A stretch of DNA of 64,000 bases, taken from positions 12,395,276 through 12,459,275 of the forward strand of contig NC_135568.1 in NCBI RefSeq assembly GCF_964340395.1, read 5' to 3'. Below the pieces are notes generated by a model. The model had not been told where the DNA came from. It searched no databases and was given only the letters and a program-made list of their open reading frames with translations. This DNA comes from Glandiceps talaboti (lineage: Eukaryota; Hemichordata; Enteropneusta; Spengelidae). Below, one piece after another: positions 450-24,471 of the stretch. The number at the start of each line of letters is the position of its first letter. Position 1 is the stretch's first letter. The translations under genes were made by a program, and so were the position numbers.

Positions 450-1628
450 AAACCCAAAAATGATAATGATATCCATGTATTATGTAATAAAGGCCCAAGT
501 TAGCTATGAGTCACATTTGCATACTTACTTCTTTATTTGTAGTTTATTTTAATAAACTCATTATACATGTCTACACATAGTTGTTATTTTGGGTATGTAT
601 TTGTAGTAAATTTGTACACTTTCCGGTCTTTTAAAAAATGAAACATTTTTAATAATCGCAGAAAAAGTTTATATAAATATGGAAGACTCCAAAAAAAGAA
701 TAAAGGAAAGAAACTATATGGATAGATTTTGTCTGTAATGGTTTAATGGAACATGATCATGGTGCATGCAAAATTGACGCTTAGTTCGCTCGCGACAGCT
801 GACGCCTCGATGCGTGACGTGCTGCTTGCCGTGCTCGAGCTCGAGCTCAAATGCATTCCTTGCTTAAACTTGTAATACAGAGGGGTAGGACAAGGCATCG
901 AATAAACCAATCAGGACGCTTCAATTCGAACATGTGACCCATGAATTTTCGCTCGATGCTCGATACCACCTGCTGCCCTCTTGTGGTGAGGTATATATTT
1001 CGCATGTTTCAGTACATTGTGGCGTTTGCGGGACAGTAAAACAGATTGCCGAAACAGCATATTATATGAACTGAAGCTCCGAAACGGTGCGTCTTTTGCG
1101 AGGGATATAAATAAAAACACAATTGATAATATCTTGGTTTAATCAATATTTGATGCCGTAGAGTTACGGTAGGCTCGAACACACAGTCGATTCCGGTCTA
1201 TATTATTTTCATAAAATTACGTAAAAATAATCATTAAACATTACTCGTCATATCTGTGTCTCTTCAAAATATACCTTTGAATGAAAGAGAAAACGTAACA
1301 ACATCATTTGACTGAGTAAACAAAAACGCGTAAGTTTGCCCGAAACAGAAAGCGTCCGTGAACGAGGGCGATGTGGTTTCAATCTTACGACGAAAAAGAA
1401 CACCAGAGTGTCCTACCCTTCCTTTTTTAGCAATTGAGCAAATTGAGCAAATTGAGCAAATGTCGAGCTCGTGCATATGGAATTTTCAAAATCCAGTACT
1501 TTTATGGACGGTTGCAAAGATTCGAATCATTCGAGCTCGCGATCGCGAGCGCGCGACAAGACAGATAATTTATATGACCGTTGGGGGCGCTACACAATCG
1601 GTACACTCCACACACGTTCAGTCTACAA

Positions 1629-1756
1629 GATCGCCATATATAGTCATGCTATTTTGCATATATGAATATTTATGATCGAATCGTTCCTAGGGAGATGTCT
1701 TTAATTTAACCAATCACAGCTGTAAAATAATATTCAGTGTTCTATGAAGCATGTAA
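1629..1756 (+). promoter_or_regulatory. Left promoter-like block, inverted match to 9769-9871
   Basis: Read on +, the order is GATCGCCATATATAG (TATA-like), AGTCATG, GAATATT, CGTTC, TTAACCAATCA (CCAAT box) and ATGTAAAT (octamer with one mismatch, about 1750). The same motifs occur in the same order, with shorter spacers, on the minus strand from 9871 to 9769. The block lies 210-340 bases upstream of the ATG at 1966. Which direction it drives is not settled: the TATA-to-CCAAT order would suit outward transcription, while the downstream ORF suits inward. Confidence 0.5.
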
Positions 1757-4455
1757 ATAACGTGATTATTGACATTACCATACAAAAACAATTGTAGAAA
1801 TTACAAATATTGAGAGAAAATTACAAAATGTACACAAAATATTCTCCTACATCTTATTGGTCAATTGACAAATGATTGACAGTTAACGCTCCCGATCGAT
1901 GAAATGATAGTCACTGAGCTCGAGCTTACAATAGCAGACGACACTTTTAAAGATAAGGTTCAACAATGCAAACGCATCAATCTTTGTCAAGCCTTGCAGC
2001 AATTATTTTAGCCTTTTTATTTTTAATTAGCATTATTGTGATCGTTGTGTTTGTTGGCCATGGCCCACAGAAGAAATGTAAAAACCCGTTCCATGAAAGG
2101 TGGAATAGAGGTTCTGAGCGTGAGAAAACCGGGGTTGAAATAGCGAAATATGTACGGAAGGACTTTCGCAATGCCTTCGCTAGACTTGGAGTTCACAGGA
2201 CAGCTAGTATCTGCACCAACTGCCTTCGTATGGCTGCAATGCGACGGGAATTTACGCAGCACTTCAATAATGTTGCGGAGCGGAAAGTTCAGGTATGTAC
2301 AAAAGAGGTTGTTTTTTATAACTCTGAGGGCGATGTATATAATGACCTCTCACGTTTGACCGATGACCTTGTGCTTCCAAGTTGCTGAACGACATAGCCT
2401 TTGTTGTGAACTGATAATATGTTGATACAGTTGATATCTGGATCCCACTTGCAATTTGCAGTCTGTCTCTGTGTTGTAACATACATGTAGTCAGAAATTT
2501 TCTTTGTACTGACCGAGCCTCGTCTCGTGCGGGATCCGGAGCAGTCCTGTTTGACGACCGTGGACGGGACACAACTCTGACAAATAACAAATGTAGTCCT
2601 GCTTGTAATAATTGTGAACACTGACAAGAAACATTACAGACACTGTCAGAATTGAGTCCCGACTTATTCCGGTTGCAGGACTAACAAATTCAATGTCTCT
2701 AAACACGGAGCTGAGAACGAAAGGGACAATGTCAGCATTGAATCTCGACTTTCAAGTCTGCAAGCAGGACGAGTTTCGATGCAGCTGAGCAAACTAAGTT
2801 TACTTCTATATTCGTAGGAGCTTTTTTTGTAATGATGATTTGCTCGTGTAACAGTAAATCAAATATGTATTATAGTTCTATAGACTTATGTTGACAGTCA
2901 GTGTATAGTTAGCAAGTGTAAAAACTTTATTGATGATCACTACATTTGTAGTTGTTTGACGACTCGTTTAATAATTGGAGACGCGGGGTGACACACCTAC
3001 GAGTGGTATGTACTATTTTGTGTATTTCATTTGTGTGATATTTGGAATTGCTTTCTTCACAGGCTGATCGCAAACGAAAGGAGACCCATGAAGAATCTCC
3101 AGCTACATGTATAGACATCGACTATATTCATGATATTACACAGTCACAGGTTAGTCATGATATAATTGGCTAAGTAAGGTCAGGCCGTTTACATTATATA
3201 AACAGCTAGAAATCCACATGTAGATTACAGGACATGCCTGTAACAGACCTCCTGCACCTCCTAAAACAGGGTATGTGAAAAAAGTGATGTTATATAGGGT
3301 CTATAAATCTGGTAAGATTTCATAGCTGTACTAATAGACATGTGACAGCTAGCAATTATGACTATTGTGATCTGTTTGAAAAATTTCATGTACAAATGCA
3401 GTTACATGGTCTGTACATTTCTGTACATCTTCTCAGAGATGTTTTCACAGTATGAGTGATGTAACTGGTCTGTTGATATAAGTATGTATACTTATCAGTT
3501 TGTATTATCTAAGAATATGTACCAAACGATATATTAGTGTTTTAATTATAAACAGTGAAATGTTGATAAAATAAGATCTGCTAATACACTTGTATACACA
3601 ATCCATGTATACAGTTATATCAACACAGATACAGCAACATGTAGAAAAAACATTATACTCTAATAGAAAATGATCCATCCTTGATTTTTCAGTAGACTTT
3701 TGAATAACAATGACTATGTACATGTGTGTGGGAGTGCATAACACCCCAAAACGAATATTTAGATTTGAAATGAGTTACTAGTACTTTTGTTTTAAAATAC
3801 TAATACCCAACTAGCAGTAATTGTTAATTTCACTAATCCCATACTTCCAGTATCCAATTATCCATAGAGTGCATATATATTTCTTGATTCTCACTAAATT
3901 CCTAATTCATGGGTTGATTTTTGCTGTATGATTTATTTAGTGTCCAAGCAAAGGATGTTCATCTATCCCAGGTCATATTACTCGTACAACACTCCAAAAC
4001 CAAGCTATAGCTACGGTAACTCCAATTGATAGTCACACAAAGGTAAGATGCTATTTGTGTTGCATATTATTTAATATGTTACTTTATTGGCAATGGTAAA
4101 AATTTTAAAATTATACGAAATTTACATGATACAGTACACATTTGCTGAACATGTTCACAACAGTATTATATGTTGTTCTTATAATTGTAAAATTGAATAA
4201 ATGAAATCTATGTAGTGTTTTTAAGTACTGCATTTATGATTGACGATGTACATTGTGTACTTCATTATTATGGATGGCTGATATAATATGCATGTATTTG
4301 TAACATCATGATATTAACAAATTCAATGAATTTTTTTTTTTTAAGTATAATGGTGTTGCAGATACAACTGTCGTATTTCTGAAGCAGCAAGAGGTGGTAC
4401 ACTTTGTCCTGAAACAAAGGCAAGTCACAGTTACTGCTGTACATTGCATATTTTA

Positions 4456-4562
4456 TTTTAACGAGTAAGCTCAGTTGGCAGGATCACGCTTGTTCGTATT
4501 CAGGGGATGTGGGTTCGACTCCTACATCCCTATATGTCTCACTTGTCTCTCCTCATTTTTCA

Positions 4563-4593
<31 letters not shown>

Positions 4594-4608
4594 CATACAT
4601 ACATACAT
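4456..4608 (+). mobile_element. tRNA-derived SINE with (CATA)n tail
   Basis: An A-box-like stretch (TAAGCTCAGTTGGCAG, from about 4465) is followed by a canonical B box GGTTCGACTCC in a T-arm that still pairs (GTGGG/CCTAC). No acceptor stem closes, and the unit runs into a CATA tetranucleotide tail (4565-4608). This is a pol III-derived retroposon rather than a working tRNA. It sits in the candidate intron between 4419 and 4966 of the + gene. Confidence 0.6.
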
Positions 4609-4965
4609 GTATAATCTTGAAGGACTGGTTTATGTAATTAGTTCCAATGTATACATGAGCGAAAGATACACTGATATGAAAGCGATTACATGACATAAAA
4701 ATGACATGAATATACCAATTTTCCATCACTTGAACATGTAACCTGTAACACATGTAACATGTAGCACATAGTCAGTAGACCGATTCAATAACATCATACA
4801 TTTTGGTGTACACAGTACTACAGGCAATGATACCAAGCTATATTGTATGTTCCATTCATGTCTGCCATGTAGGTAGTTGTGACATAGTAACTAAGAGTCA
4901 TTAAATGAAATGAAAGTATGCAACTTCTAGAGATTTAACAGTTTTGTATTTTACACTTATTTCAG

Positions 4966-7167
4966 ATACCAGAATATGCTAACATGTACAACCTTGATGT
5001 TGTAGGCGAATACCAGCAACTAATTAGTGAGCTGAAAGATCAGGTAAAGTCCCTAATACAGGATGTAGATGAGTTAAGTGAAGAAGTGACTTCTCTTAGA
5101 AATGAAAATAAGGACCTGTTAGAAGATAAAAATAAACTAGAAGATGACAAGGATGAATTACAAAAGAAATTAGACAATATGTATGAAACACAAAAACAGA
5201 GGATTGAAGCAGTCAAACAAATAGGTTTCATAGAAAATAAGAATGCCTATGAAGAAACAACAAAACTGACCAGGGATAAAGATAGAAGGAGCTTAGATAA
5301 TCTAATAGATGTCAATTTAGTCAGTCACATAAATTCTAGAAATCCTGTTGTTGTCGCATTTATAAATGCAATAACAGCTAAACAGACAGAAAGTGGGATT
5401 GGTTTAATAGGGAATAGTGAATCAGTTAAAATAGAATTAAATGTGTAAATTGTGTAATTAAGTAATGCCACTGACATCTGTAGTGTATGTAATCACAGCC
5501 ATCCAAAGGTTGAAAATAGAATTAAATGTGTAAATTGTGGTAACTTTGGTTTGAAAAGAAAGAGTAAAAAAGGTGTGGATACAAAGACATACAGGACAAA
5601 AAGCACTTGTGATGATAATACAATTTTATTTCATGAGTATACTGGCCACACAGTGACTAATGAGGGAGGTACCCAACGGGTAGTAATGAAATATGAAGGA
5701 AAATCCCCAGACACTGAAAATGTACTTAACCAAGTTAGGAAGGCCAATATTAGTCTTGTAGACCCTATGTTTGTAAACCCATCTTCTCTGGAAGCTATTG
5801 TAATAATTCTTAGGGCAATAGGGAAACATGCAGGGATTCATAAATACTGCAACGGTAAAGGAAAGAGGGAATGGACCATTGTAAGATGTGATGGCTTACT
5901 CCAGCACATCATAAGAATAAGCTATTCATAAGTATGGGGATGAGTTTGATTGGGTGGTTCTTCGCACTGGTCCAGGTCATGAAGAAATGAATATGATAAG
6001 ATCTTTTGCAGAAATGTATTGGGAAATTATCTATTCAGAGTTTGGGAAGACACAGGGTTTTGTGACTGAGAAGGCTCAGCTTTTCTTTAAGAGATGTGGG
6101 GACCACCATCAAAGTTTTGATAATTTCTGTAAATTCCATGAAGCTATCTATCAAGAGTTACTTTGGCCATATACGTGTGAGTCTCAAGTTCCATCACCTT
6201 ATGACTTTTGGAATGGATAAGAAACAAAAGTAGTGATGAAACGATACAGTTTGTTTGGACAACAATGCTGCAACATTGCCTTGGAATTCATTTGTTCAGG
6301 AAGGGGGTCCGAAACAATGATACTAAACTTTTCAGAGCAGGGAGACAATTATTTTCTCCAGTTTGGTTTGGACGTTGTCACCCAAAATACCAGGAAATAG
6401 AGTCATGGGATGAGTATGATAGATTGTGTTGGCCAGAGGCCCTAAGGGAGGTATTAGAACAATATGAATCTGTTTCTAGATCTGGAAAGCCAAATAAACA
6501 CCAGGGTTTGGACTTTGTCCTTGAAGAATATAATAAATCAATCAAATCATGGATAGTGGGGACTCCTGACTATACTAAGTGGGAAAGGGTCATTCGCAAC
6601 CATCACAGTCTTGTATGTCTCCGTAACACCACATTGATGGCACTAGGAATGAGAGTTGACAATTCATTTGATCGCAATCTTCCTCCATATGAAAACGATC
6701 TTGTTAACTTCAAAGTGGTGTTAAGGTCCAAGGCATATCTTACACCTAACCCAGGTAGAACAATTACCAATATTCATGGGGAGGATCTTGACATTGGTTT
6801 GCTAGATTTTAATAGCGAGGCAGGTATGAGAAGAATGAGATTTGTCACTCAGTATCTATGGGCCTCTAAGTTCCCTCAGAGAAGAGAACACGTCCCTGTA
6901 ATTTTTGTTACTAAAGAAGAAAGGGCAAAATATAACAAACTAGAATCTAAATCTGTGGCACAATTAAAGTGTGAAATGCAATCCTACTTGTCAGTGATGT
7001 CTCCAGAAAGAAGAATAGAGTGGGATAGTAAAGTAACTAGACTGAGTAAAAGTAGGGTTGTTAAATCAACATGGTTAAAACCTGTCACAGAAATCCAGGA
7101 TGCAATAATTAATGAAGTGGGGGAAAGTGATGGTAATGTAGATGGTATTTCTGAGGATGACAAGTGA
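4966..7167 (+). pseudogene. Large 3' exon of the degenerate + gene, in four frame segments
   Basis: Segment 1 (4966-5448, after TTTCAG) is a Lys/Glu-rich coiled coil, roughly 60 residues of heptads from GEYQQLISELK. It ends at TAA 5446, with a second in-frame TAA at 5455. The same frame reopens at 5458 with CSVCNHSH...CVNCGN, a CxxC-x12-CxxC zinc ribbon, and runs to 5931. A shift near 5915-5932 leads to HKYGDEFDWVVLRTGPGHEE (from 5927) and on to 6220. Another shift at the T-run 6206-6209 (one extra T would rejoin the frame) leads into the last 320 codons, ending at TGA 7165. That last part contains HQGLDFVLEEYNKSIKSW and RNHHSLVCLRN. Each segment reads like real protein across the breaks, so the open frame was under selection until recently or the breaks are sequencing indels. 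Confidence 0.55.
5428..5539 (+). repeat. 27-bp direct repeat 85 bp apart at a frame break
   Basis: Bases 5428-5454 and 5513-5539 are identical. The second copy encodes the zinc-ribbon part NRIKCVNC. The first copy, read in the upstream ORF's frame, supplies the stop at 5446. A local template-switch or partial duplication would explain both the repeat and the break. Confidence 0.8.
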
Positions 7168-7785
7168 GACAAATATTTGTTAAAGTGAAGATTAAAATTA
7201 TCCAGTGAAAATGTAACTATTTTGATGCTACAATGTGAAGTGTATCTTTTCATGATTTCAAATATATATGTATAGACTCTGATAGTTTAAAAGATTAAAG
7301 TAGAAAAATTAAATTTAGATTACATTAGAGTTGGTTTCTATAATATTTAATGCTAGATGTTAGTTTCACTGTTTATCTCAGCAATAACATTTTTGCATTG
7401 TCTTTTTCAGGTATGGTGTTTGGGGTTCCACCTTTCATATACGAATCATAAATCTAAACATGGCTGATTTGGAGTAATTAATTCATAGAAATAATGAACT
7501 GTCAAGTTGCTCTCTACATCTTTATACAAATATACCAAAGTCAAAACAAGACAAATGTCACTGTAGTACAAATTAACACATGACACTGTGTTGAATAATT
7601 TTGTTGTTGGTGTAGGTCTGAAATACCATTATTAAAATAATTGGATTGTTTTTAACATTTTCTGTCCATTTTATATTTGTAGACAACAAATAAGCATGAG
7701 GGCAAATTGACATTTCATGTAAAATTTCAAATTGAAATTGTCCAGTTATTAATGGTAATGATGCATACATGTGTTTTTTATAAAA

Positions 7786-7826
<41 letters not shown>

Positions 7827-9179
7827 ACACACATGCATGCATGCACACAATACATCTATTCAAGTAATTGGTCGAGTAGATAGCATATTCAGTAAGGAGT
7901 CAGTTGTTTTTTATCTGTAGCTTGTTTCACACATTTTTGGAGTTTTTATATATCCAACTGATTCTGGTAGTACCTTACAGCACTCCTACTGAAGGCTTAC
8001 ATACATGTTCATACTATGTATTGTATGTACGTATGTATGTATGTATGTATGTATGTATGTATGTATGTATGTATTATATGTAATACTTGTAAATGTTTCA
8101 ATTCAGAAGTTTTATTTGAAAATAAAATTCATTGTATATCATAATTCATCGTCTATCATTTTCATTCCCTTATAGATACATGCTTGCTTAGACATAATTT
8201 GATTGCAAGTTTGACTAGAAATAACGCCCAATTGTCCATCTAACCATCCCTTACCACTCAACCATCTACCCATCAATACCTATTTAGCCCAAACTCCATT
8301 CCCCAAAATAGTAAATAATGACAAACCAGTAGTTAATTGTGACAACTGTGTATATAAACAGTTGAAGGTCTTAACACTACAAACAAGGAGTATGTGTAAA
8401 AAGAAATTAAGACATCAATTACAGTGTCCTTGCTAGTATTTCTCGTTTTCTCAGATAAGAGATAAAATATTGAATTAATGAAATAAGTGACACGAGTAAT
8501 ATATTGTGCAAGTGACATCAAAAAAGACAATTTATTGTTTGTCTTTTTGATATCATGTTAGAAAAGTGATGATGATCCCATCACACCAAACAAGTGAGAA
8601 ATAAAGTAGTCTGTGACAAAAGTTATATCAATCAACATAATAGGGGTATCAAAAGTACAATGACATGTTTTGCAAATTAAGTATATTGCCAAGTAGTGCT
8701 TCGGATTTGTTTTAGAAACAGCTGTAAGTTGAAAGACCAAAGCATATCTCTTGTTAAATTAGAAATCATCATTAACACACCCACCTTAATTTTACACACA
8801 TAACCAACCATTGAATCATAGAAATACATCACGTGACCAAGGTTTGCCTGAAGTCACAAACATGTACGTAATGATCTGTCAAACAAGTGATGATTGCCCC
8901 CCCCCCCCTCCACGCCAAAACCAACGACATCAGCAAACACGAACTAGCTACAGTATAGTCTCTGTATGTCACAACGATAACGTAATACTATAAACATATG
9001 TGTTGTATCCTAATCAGCGTTTACTCAATAGCACACTGGTGACGGTAATCTGTGTAGTTTACCTACCTGTGATGTATTCAAATCAAAATTCAAACTTCGA
9101 ACTCTACACTAAGTTAACATTTTGTGAAAGTGCACAGAACAGCTTTCATAACACCATGAAACCATGTAATTCACATTTC

Positions 9180-9227
<48 letters not shown>

Positions 9228-9246
9228 TCACGCATTGATTACGGTA
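7168..9246. other. Intergenic between convergent genes; microsatellites only
   Basis: I see no coding exon here. An AC/CATG-rich microsatellite lies at 7785-7846, GTAT repeats at 8029-8074 and an AC repeat at 9181-9226. A C-run at 8896-8908 is flanked by ordinary AT-rich sequence. Confidence 0.7.
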
Positions 9247-9284
9247 GTTCTCTTTTTGGAGGATGTGTGGCCCTGAAAAGGGCC
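9247..9284 (-). terminator. Histone-type mRNA 3' end: stem-loop plus downstream purine element
   Basis: On the minus strand 9284-9269 reads GGCCCTTTTCAGGGCC: a perfect 6-bp stem with a TTTC loop, preceded by CAAAAC and followed by ACACA. This is the metazoan replication-dependent histone mRNA 3' stem-loop bound by SLBP. Ten bases further on lies CAAAAAGAGAAC (9258-9247), matching the purine-rich histone downstream element that pairs with U7 snRNA. The stem starts 20 nt after the HIRAN ORF's stop, close to histone gene spacing. I saw no AATAAA nearby on this strand. Confidence 0.85.
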
Positions 9285-9304
9285 GTTTTGATTTGGTTTG
9301 GTGT

Positions 9305-9697
9305 CTAGGGGAACAAGACAGGAAAACTCTGGTTCAGGACTATGTCCTTTGCCCGAGTGACGTCCTCTGTCTTCACCATGAAGCCGGCCGTACACATCTG
9401 AACTTTACCATACCGCCGAGAATGGAAGAAACAACGGCCCTTTGGCTTCAAATAATACCGTCCATTTGAAGCTAGACGTGCATCAATCACTTTTGCTAGT
9501 AACTGAGCAGCGTCTCTCTTCAAATGGCCGAGTACTTTTTGATGTTGTTCCATTCCATTCTCGACGATACCGCAAGCATTCGGATCATGCACGTTATTCA
9601 GTTCATGGATGATGTTGTATCCTCTCCCTGGCGTTAGTTCCCCCGAATAATGGTGCATTCCCACAGCAATTACGTTTCTGATGATGACTTTCGGCAT
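9305..9697 (-). CDS. Stand-alone HIRAN-domain protein, intronless, histone-like mRNA ends
   Basis: The ORF encodes 130 aa from ATG at 9697 (MPKVIIRN); an in-frame upstream TTG at 9754 is not a eukaryotic start. The whole protein looks like one HIRAN domain (HIP116/Rad5 N-terminal): VGMHHYSGE, the Pro-Gly turn, ELNNVHDPNACGI and VLGHLKRDAAQLLAKVID match the N-P-x-D-x-N-A and V-G-H-L core. In HLTF this OB-like domain binds 3' ends of single-stranded DNA and helps reverse stalled replication forks. Here no helicase or RING follows and no intron is visible. The stop (9305-9307) is followed at once by a histone mRNA stem-loop, and an octamer ATTTGCAT (reverse) and a CCAAT box lie 70-115 bases upstream. 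The inferred behaviour is S-phase-limited, non-polyadenylated mRNA. DNA-end binding is assumed from the family. It is convergent with the degenerate + gene. Confidence 0.8.
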   Translation of the reverse strand: MPKVIIRNVIAVGMHHYSGELTPGRGYNIIHELNNVHDPNACGIVENGMEQHQKVLGHLKRDAAQLLAKVIDARLASNGRYYLKPKGRCFFHSRRYGKVQMCTAGFMVKTEDVTRAKDIVLNQSFPVLFP

Positions 9698-9768
9698 CGT
9701 GATTAAAACTTTGTTGTGGTTTTGCTCTGGTTCAGCAGACGATAAGAAAAACAAAAGTAAGCGCGCCT

Positions 9769-9871
9769 ATTTGCATAACCTATGACCCAAACTTTCTGTG
9801 ACGCTGATTGGTTAAAATGAAGAGTAGAACGTACTACTTAATATTCATGACTAATTCCTTATATGGCGATC
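9769..9871 (-). promoter_or_regulatory. Octamer/CCAAT/TATA block upstream of the HIRAN gene
   Basis: On + the order is ATTTGCAT (9769-9776, a perfect octamer), GATTGG (9806-9811, inverted CCAAT) and TTATATGGCGATC (9859-9871). Octamer and CCAAT are typical of histone H2B promoters. The block is the inverted counterpart of 1629-1756. It may act in both directions. Outward, the order octamer-CCAAT-TATA would place a start near 9895-9900, but I find no ORF there. Confidence 0.5.
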
Positions 9872-10089
9872 GACTTGACTGACGTTAGACCAGACATGCA
9901 TTACGCATGTTACGTCCCAGTCCGCCGTATTCTATTTGTATTTCAGCGCGTTTCAAGTTACTGTATTTTTCTGTGTTTTCGATGTATTTTAATTAGATAT
10001 TAATTATTGATTCAAGATAATGAAGTAATTATAAACTTGACGGAACTTTTTGATATTGTCTTTATTCATGTTATTCAATTGTTGATAGA

Positions 10090-16347: not shown

Positions 16348-24471
<8,124 letters not shown>

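Follow-up and report, generated by a model that had tools for sequence, protein, structure and literature searches.

A transposon-borne HIRAN gene with a histone-type 3' end in the genome of the acorn worm Glandiceps talaboti

In the present study, a stretch of 64,000 nucleotides from Glandiceps talaboti (contig NC_135568.1, hereafter the window) was found to carry a short intronless gene for a HIRAN protein, in which the stop codon is followed by a stem-loop and a downstream element of the kind that ends histone genes, and which lies at one end of an element classed here as a DNA transposon. We consider it probable that this accessory gene of the transposon uses SLBP/U7-type 3'-end formation like the histone genes of the host. 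The most surprising result is the occurrence of histone-type ends on transposon genes in this genome, rather than the HIRAN gene itself. Metazoan histone mRNAs have been described as unlike all other mRNAs in that they end in a stem-loop and not in a poly(A) tail (available text of PMC12775136).

Several lines of evidence bear on the identity of the gene and of its 3' end (Table 1). The Pfam HIRAN domain (PF08797) covers residues 10-74 of the 130-residue product with 33.1 bits, above the cut-off of 24.7 for the domain. The Rfam Histone3 family (RF00032) matches window positions 9289..9245 with 37.0 bits against a gathering score of 34 (E 3.6e-7), and no other Rfam match reaches its gathering score within the 64-kb window. 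An intronless HIRAN ORF, a histone stem-loop 20 nt past its stop and a purine-rich downstream element had all been claimed in the original prediction, and all three were confirmed. The same downstream string occurs in the majority of the host histone genes that were inspected: at the H2A, H2B, H3 and H4 loci from the genome-wide Histone3 search, and at an H1 locus recognized by eye, the stem-loop is mostly followed by CATCCTCCAAAAAGAGAACTACC, which is also present in the HIRAN gene. The spacing differs slightly, with 7 nt between stem and downstream element in the HIRAN gene vs 8 nt in host histone genes, and with 20 nt between stop and stem vs approximately 24-32 nt. In histone pre-mRNA, cleavage takes place shortly past the stem, which in the HIRAN gene would be at about the position of ACACA. 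Since AATAAA motifs lie approximately 730 and 1,150 nt downstream of the gene, a polyadenylated form is also possible. A core-histone gene or relic adjoining the HIRAN ORF was considered and rejected, as no significant core-histone match was obtained with tblastn in the 64-kb window. Judged from the sequence, the likeness of the 3' end of the HIRAN ORF to the histone type is far beyond chance.

Table 1. Features of the window and groups of stem-loops away from histone genes (plain numbers are window positions; L numbers are loci and C numbers are contigs)
Feature	Location	Strand	Basis or remark
Element classed as DNA transposon with HIRAN gene, 8,265 bp	1618..9882		homology limits (HIRAN side, 12 other copies; other side, two copies)
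Terminal inverted repeat, HIRAN side, TCAGTCAAGTCGATCGCCATATA	9860..9882	-	end comparison
Terminal inverted repeat, other side, TCAGTCTACAAGATCGCCATATA	1618..1640	+	end comparison
Target-site duplication, HIRAN side, CGT (+ strand)	9883..9885		read off flanks
Target-site duplication, other side, CGT (+ strand)	1615..1617		read off flanks
143-aa stop-to-stop ORF in element, without Pfam match	1957..2388	+	ORF and Pfam
ORF series 4939-5448, 5458-5931, 5921-6220, 6205-7167	4939..7167	+	ORF reading; possible exons
CCAAT motif	9807..9811	-	motif search; weak
Octamer ATGCAAAT, 79 nt before ATG	9769..9776	-	motif search; weak
HIRAN ORF, 130 aa, intronless, stop TAG included	9305..9697	-	ORF reading and Pfam
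Histone stem-loop GGCCCTTTTCAGGGCC, starts 20 nt past stop	9269..9284	-	Rfam RF00032, 37.0 bits
ACACA after stem; predicted cleavage about here	9264..9268	-	sequence and general rule for histone pre-mRNA
Downstream element CTCCAAAAAGAGAACTA, putative U7 site	9245..9261	-	identical string in most host histone genes
Group A, ten repeats	L102, L105-L113; C20:3.97-7.45 Mb and C21		97-98% identical over ~3 kb
Group B	L103, L104, L114, L119		related in DNA
Group C, ~2.6-kb elements	L152-L166 (L169, L170 noted alongside)		TTAA target sites
HIRAN fragments in small elements	L117, L118, L120-L126		C-terminal part of HIRAN-like ORF; tblastn
Group D, different contigs	L116, L132, L167, L168		like sequence before stem (by eye); ORF ends DDSE in L116, L132
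Singles	L115, L131, L133, L134		

The interpretation given in the original prediction is supported in part and was widened: the claim that this is a stand-alone host gene had to be given up, and the HIRAN gene was found to be the terminal gene of a multi-copy element. In 13 copies the homology ends at the same place on the HIRAN side, 185 nt before the ATG (window 9882), and the flanks beyond are unrelated; the first base at this end differs in two of the 13. At the other end, the homology breaks off at window 1618/1619 in the two copies that were traced that far; both ends have been seen in three of the 13 copies, and one further copy was traced no farther than about window 5814. The ends form imperfect inverted repeats, TCAGTCaagtcGATCGCCATATA and TCAGTCtacaaGATCGCCATATA. 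Target duplications, read by eye, are CGT (+ strand) in the window and TTA at C4:26.08 Mb, and TTCG for the copy at C13:19.69 Mb provided that this copy has lost its final base. One copy of the element is without window 7210-4228. Because of the inverted-repeat ends, the target duplications and the dispersed copies with a common end and unrelated flanks, positions 1618-9882 are classed as a terminal-inverted-repeat DNA transposon. The series of ORFs between 4939 and 7167 possibly represents exons of a larger gene of the element itself. Using Pfam, no classical transposase was recognized in the element, the only candidate being the ORF at 6205-7167, which is weakly DUF6589-like (23.9 bits, below the cut-off of 27). 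Outside the transposon, the window also contains a Na/Pi cotransporter ORF (16348-17268, minus strand; PF02690, 44.1 bits), probably an exon of a gene whose further parts, judged by eye, extend in the direction of 20.5 kb.

Whether the 3' module is kept was followed at HIRAN loci across the assembly from which the window comes (590.4 Mb, 47 contigs). The loci were chosen by protein match, blind to the stem-loop: all 44 candidates were scored, and the 32 matches obtained, five of them with stop codons, were counted as 28 loci because four of these are split in two. Thirteen copies have a full-length open frame and are 98-100% identical; they lie on C2, C4 (two), C5, C6 (two), C7, C8, C13, C14, C22 (the window), C23 and C45. 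In every one the ORF is intact, and both the stem-loop and the downstream element are preserved without change. These copies vary at 7 of 393 sites in the ORF, 5 of 185 upstream and 1 of 75 after the stop. Four of the seven variable ORF sites change an amino acid, and thus no purifying selection on the protein is visible among the 13 copies; the stem-loops of such young copies may have been kept through recency. The other 15 loci are partial or diverged (42-96% protein identity, most only 42-57%). Nevertheless, a stem-loop with at most two mismatches is present at 12 of the 15, giving 25 of 28 loci overall, and the downstream element is present with at most two mismatches at 11, the remaining four having at least three. 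Histone3 matches at E up to 3e-4 were obtained at 11 of the 15 loci, four of which are above the gathering score. The stem-loop is lost at L197, L198 (downstream element still there) and L202 (stem disrupted). The original prediction had named absence of the stem-loop at orthologous or paralogous HIRAN genes as evidence against itself; at the paralogous loci, the module is kept in most cases. By eye, the stretch between stop and stem varies between HIRAN subfamilies, and the stem and downstream element are retained; this comparison points to selection on the stem-loop and downstream element.

The host might supply the required partners. The RNA-binding domain of SLBP (PF15247) is encoded on C16, with two matches of 51 and 36.2 bits (cut-off 27). 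A search for U7 snRNA (RF00066) gave no match in the genome, and the controls were equally without match, so that little can be read from this negative. Upstream of the gene, the octamer and CCAAT motif of the original prediction are both present, and the octamer stands 79 nt before the ATG, a distance as in host H2B promoters, where an octamer was found in nine of nine cases (77-81 nt before the ATG in eight and 90 nt in the ninth). However, these motifs are common, with 20 octamers in both orientations and 147 CCAAT/ATTGG in the 64-kb window; moreover, the HIRAN octamer is reversed compared with that of the two host H2B promoters read for orientation, and the region upstream of the HIRAN ATG showed no TATA box, whereas one is present in eight of the nine H2B promoters examined. 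Because octamers are so frequent, little weight is placed on the promoter; the two motifs were set aside as strong evidence, and the likeness to histone promoters is suggestive only.

The genome-wide Histone3 search revealed that the HIRAN gene, with its complete 3' module, is only one among several non-histone families that end in this way. From 86,667 first-look candidates, 75 stem-loops were scored (the stem-loop of the window itself being outside the 75), and 74 of these, all except L168, are above the cut-off. Twenty-nine lie with histone genes: 26 have an upstream core-histone match by tblastn (one a degenerate H3), one follows an H1 recognized by eye (L147), and two lie in the H3 array L141, each lacking its own ORF. 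This array, at C5:9.006-9.015 Mb, holds four stem-loops, of which two are without an upstream H3 ORF and one follows a degenerate H3. The other 46 lie away from histone genes and comprise groups A (10), B (4), C (15) and D (4), HIRAN fragments (9) and singles (4), where A, B and C were grouped by DNA identity and D by eye. Since the stem-loop score was the criterion by which these loci were selected, their numbers do not measure how often elements keep the module, which the HIRAN protein search alone provides.

In group A, an ORF of 147-151 aa resembles the P2RX7_C domain at 16.8 bits, below the Pfam cut-off of 23.5, and the stem-loop lies 60-70 nt past its stop. In group B, an ORF of more than 100 aa is present in L119 only, which was also the only member run against Pfam; it encodes P2RX7_C (PF20478, 55.6 bits) and ends 144 nt before the stem. 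In group C, a 189-aa ORF (186-189 aa in four of the 15 copies) resembles that of group A by eye, without a P2RX7_C match; the stem-loop follows after 40 nt, and the downstream element is the variant AAAAAGAGTGTACC. Clear element ends were recognized in two of the non-histone groups. Those of group C are AGGCCCGTAT...ATACGGGCCT, flanked by TTAA (on the left in several copies, on the right in the two copies fetched), and those of the HIRAN fragments are CCGGAGTTTTC...GAAAACTCCGG, delimiting an element of approximately 920 bp with TA on both sides in seven of nine. The fragments were assigned by tblastn, at E 4e-8 for L122 and down to 3e-5 within the group, and the one ORF run against Pfam, that of L122, gave no match. 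Among the singles, L115 encodes a DDE_3 transposase (56 bits) in interrupted frames, the last stop being 109 nt before the stem, and L134 has a 110-aa stop-to-stop ORF, with no Pfam match above cut-off, that ends 25 nt before a perfect histone stem-loop and downstream element; L131 and L133, with short ORFs only, may not be genes. Taken together, we regard it as an evenly balanced question whether several unrelated DNA transposon families, with HIRAN, P2X7-C-terminus-like and DDE_3 transposase genes, took over the histone 3'-end pathway, so that their non-polyadenylated, replication-coupled mRNAs would form a second large class of SLBP clients beside the histones. The estimate goes no higher, since group C was linked to P2X7-C by eye and few of its ORFs are intact.

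Concerning the HIRAN protein, the nearest solved structures are the HIRAN chains of HLTF, with a weak match (E 0.0065). In the alignment to HLTF, the equivalents of Asn90, Asn91 and Asp94 are kept, and the stacking residues Tyr72 and Tyr93 are both His. The residue roles were taken from PMC4666394, the consulted part of which identifies Y72 and Y93 as stacking residues and states that mutation of Asn90-Asn91 abolishes the post-replication repair function of HLTF. By analogy with the HIRAN of HLTF, binding to DNA ends or to single strands is possible for the 130-aa protein, which could act at transposon ends or at forks. The ORF itself also contains an imperfect inverted repeat (window 9411-9569, approximately 69% over 132 bp).

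In protein databases, relatives of about equal length are P0001 (98% identity), P0002 (61%), P0003 (55-57%) and P0004 (49%), and many others follow at roughly 25-40%, including those of the bivalves Mactra antiquata, Pinctada imbricata and Tegillarca granosa; the proteins of M. antiquata and P. imbricata have 125 aa each. Pfam HIRAN was detected at E up to 0.01 in 35 of the 39 members of the alignment of relatives. P0003 extends beyond the usual C-terminal end with KRPFSGPTYPPRRELP, a tail that is compatible with read-through of CGGCCCTTTTCAGGGCC and the downstream element and that has a counterpart in none of the other sequences among 83 proteins. Among 200,000 shuffled tails, none was compatible with the exact stem-loop, 25 were compatible with a looser consensus and 84 with the loosest pattern, and a frame-tolerant alignment of the tail with the 3' UTR of the window scored 46, vs at most 20 in 150 shuffles. 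The predicted P0003 protein has no stop before the stem and may represent a copy that is damaged or was misread; it may also come from the same species as the window. No relative of the HIRAN protein was confirmed in the viral contigs and prokaryote genomes searched, and a stem-loop pattern search of the viral contigs gave 101 stretches. Among the open-licence papers searched, including the consulted portions of PMC4666394, PMC5706932 and PMC1924863, there was no case of a histone stem-loop used by a non-histone gene, of a HIRAN gene with a stem-loop or of a transposon with a stem-loop, in agreement with the statement in the original prediction that no described non-histone example was known to its author.

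Other explanations of these observations have to be weighed. The module might be a relic of histone-gene origin that is passively carried along, the HIRAN mRNA being polyadenylated or not made at all. The near-identity of the young copies throughout and the loss of the stem-loop at three of the 15 older loci are what such hitch-hiking would produce, but the module is still recognizable at most loci where about half of the protein residues have changed, the stop-to-stem stretch differs between subfamilies, and several further ORF families have the same module at a short distance past their stop; we consider this explanation unlikely. Even less probable is that HIRAN is a replication-coupled host protein merely copied by the transposon. 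The small bivalve proteins of like length fit a host gene, yet the 28 loci are scattered, the 13 intact copies have one element end in common within unrelated surroundings, and no single non-mobile locus was identified among the 44 candidates scored, with flanks compared for the 13 intact copies. A hairpin that lies near the HIRAN gene by chance has a negligible probability given its Rfam score and E-value in 64 kb, the downstream element of host-histone type and the stem-loops at both the recent and the further HIRAN loci, and was rejected.

Herein, we propose the following mechanism for the preferred reading, an accessory gene with SLBP/U7-type 3'-end formation. HIRAN would be an intronless accessory gene of the 8.3-kb terminal-inverted-repeat transposon, and its pre-mRNA would start from a promoter within the last 185 bp of the element. 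Since the known histone pathway works in this way, we infer that transcripts of the HIRAN type would be cut past the stem by SLBP and the U7 snRNP, together with CPSF73, instead of being cleaved and polyadenylated. An intronless transposon gene would likely gain a compact terminator, a splicing-free export route and expression during DNA replication. If this is true, the histone 3'-end pathway is not restricted to histones and can be exploited by selfish elements, and the expression of transposon genes would be tied to DNA replication. Poly(A)-based RNA-seq would also capture too few of such mRNAs, and this is perhaps why they went unnoticed.

Compared with HLTF/Rad5, the protein shares the Pfam HIRAN domain and the equivalents of Asn90, Asn91 and Asp94, but it is hardly more than a single HIRAN domain, Tyr72 and Tyr93 are replaced by His, and the match to HLTF is weak. 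Like the terminal-inverted-repeat DNA transposons, the element has inverted ends, short target duplications and dispersed near-identical copies; it differs in its accessory gene with a histone-type 3' end, and we know of no described transposon with such a gene. The replication-dependent histone genes of animals resemble the HIRAN gene in the short intronless ORF and the stop followed after approximately 20-30 nt by a stem-loop, in the purine-rich downstream element, here of host type, and in the octamer at the H2B distance, which in the HIRAN gene is without a TATA box. In contrast, the HIRAN gene is one base shorter between stem and downstream element, encodes a HIRAN protein instead of a histone and is carried by a transposon.
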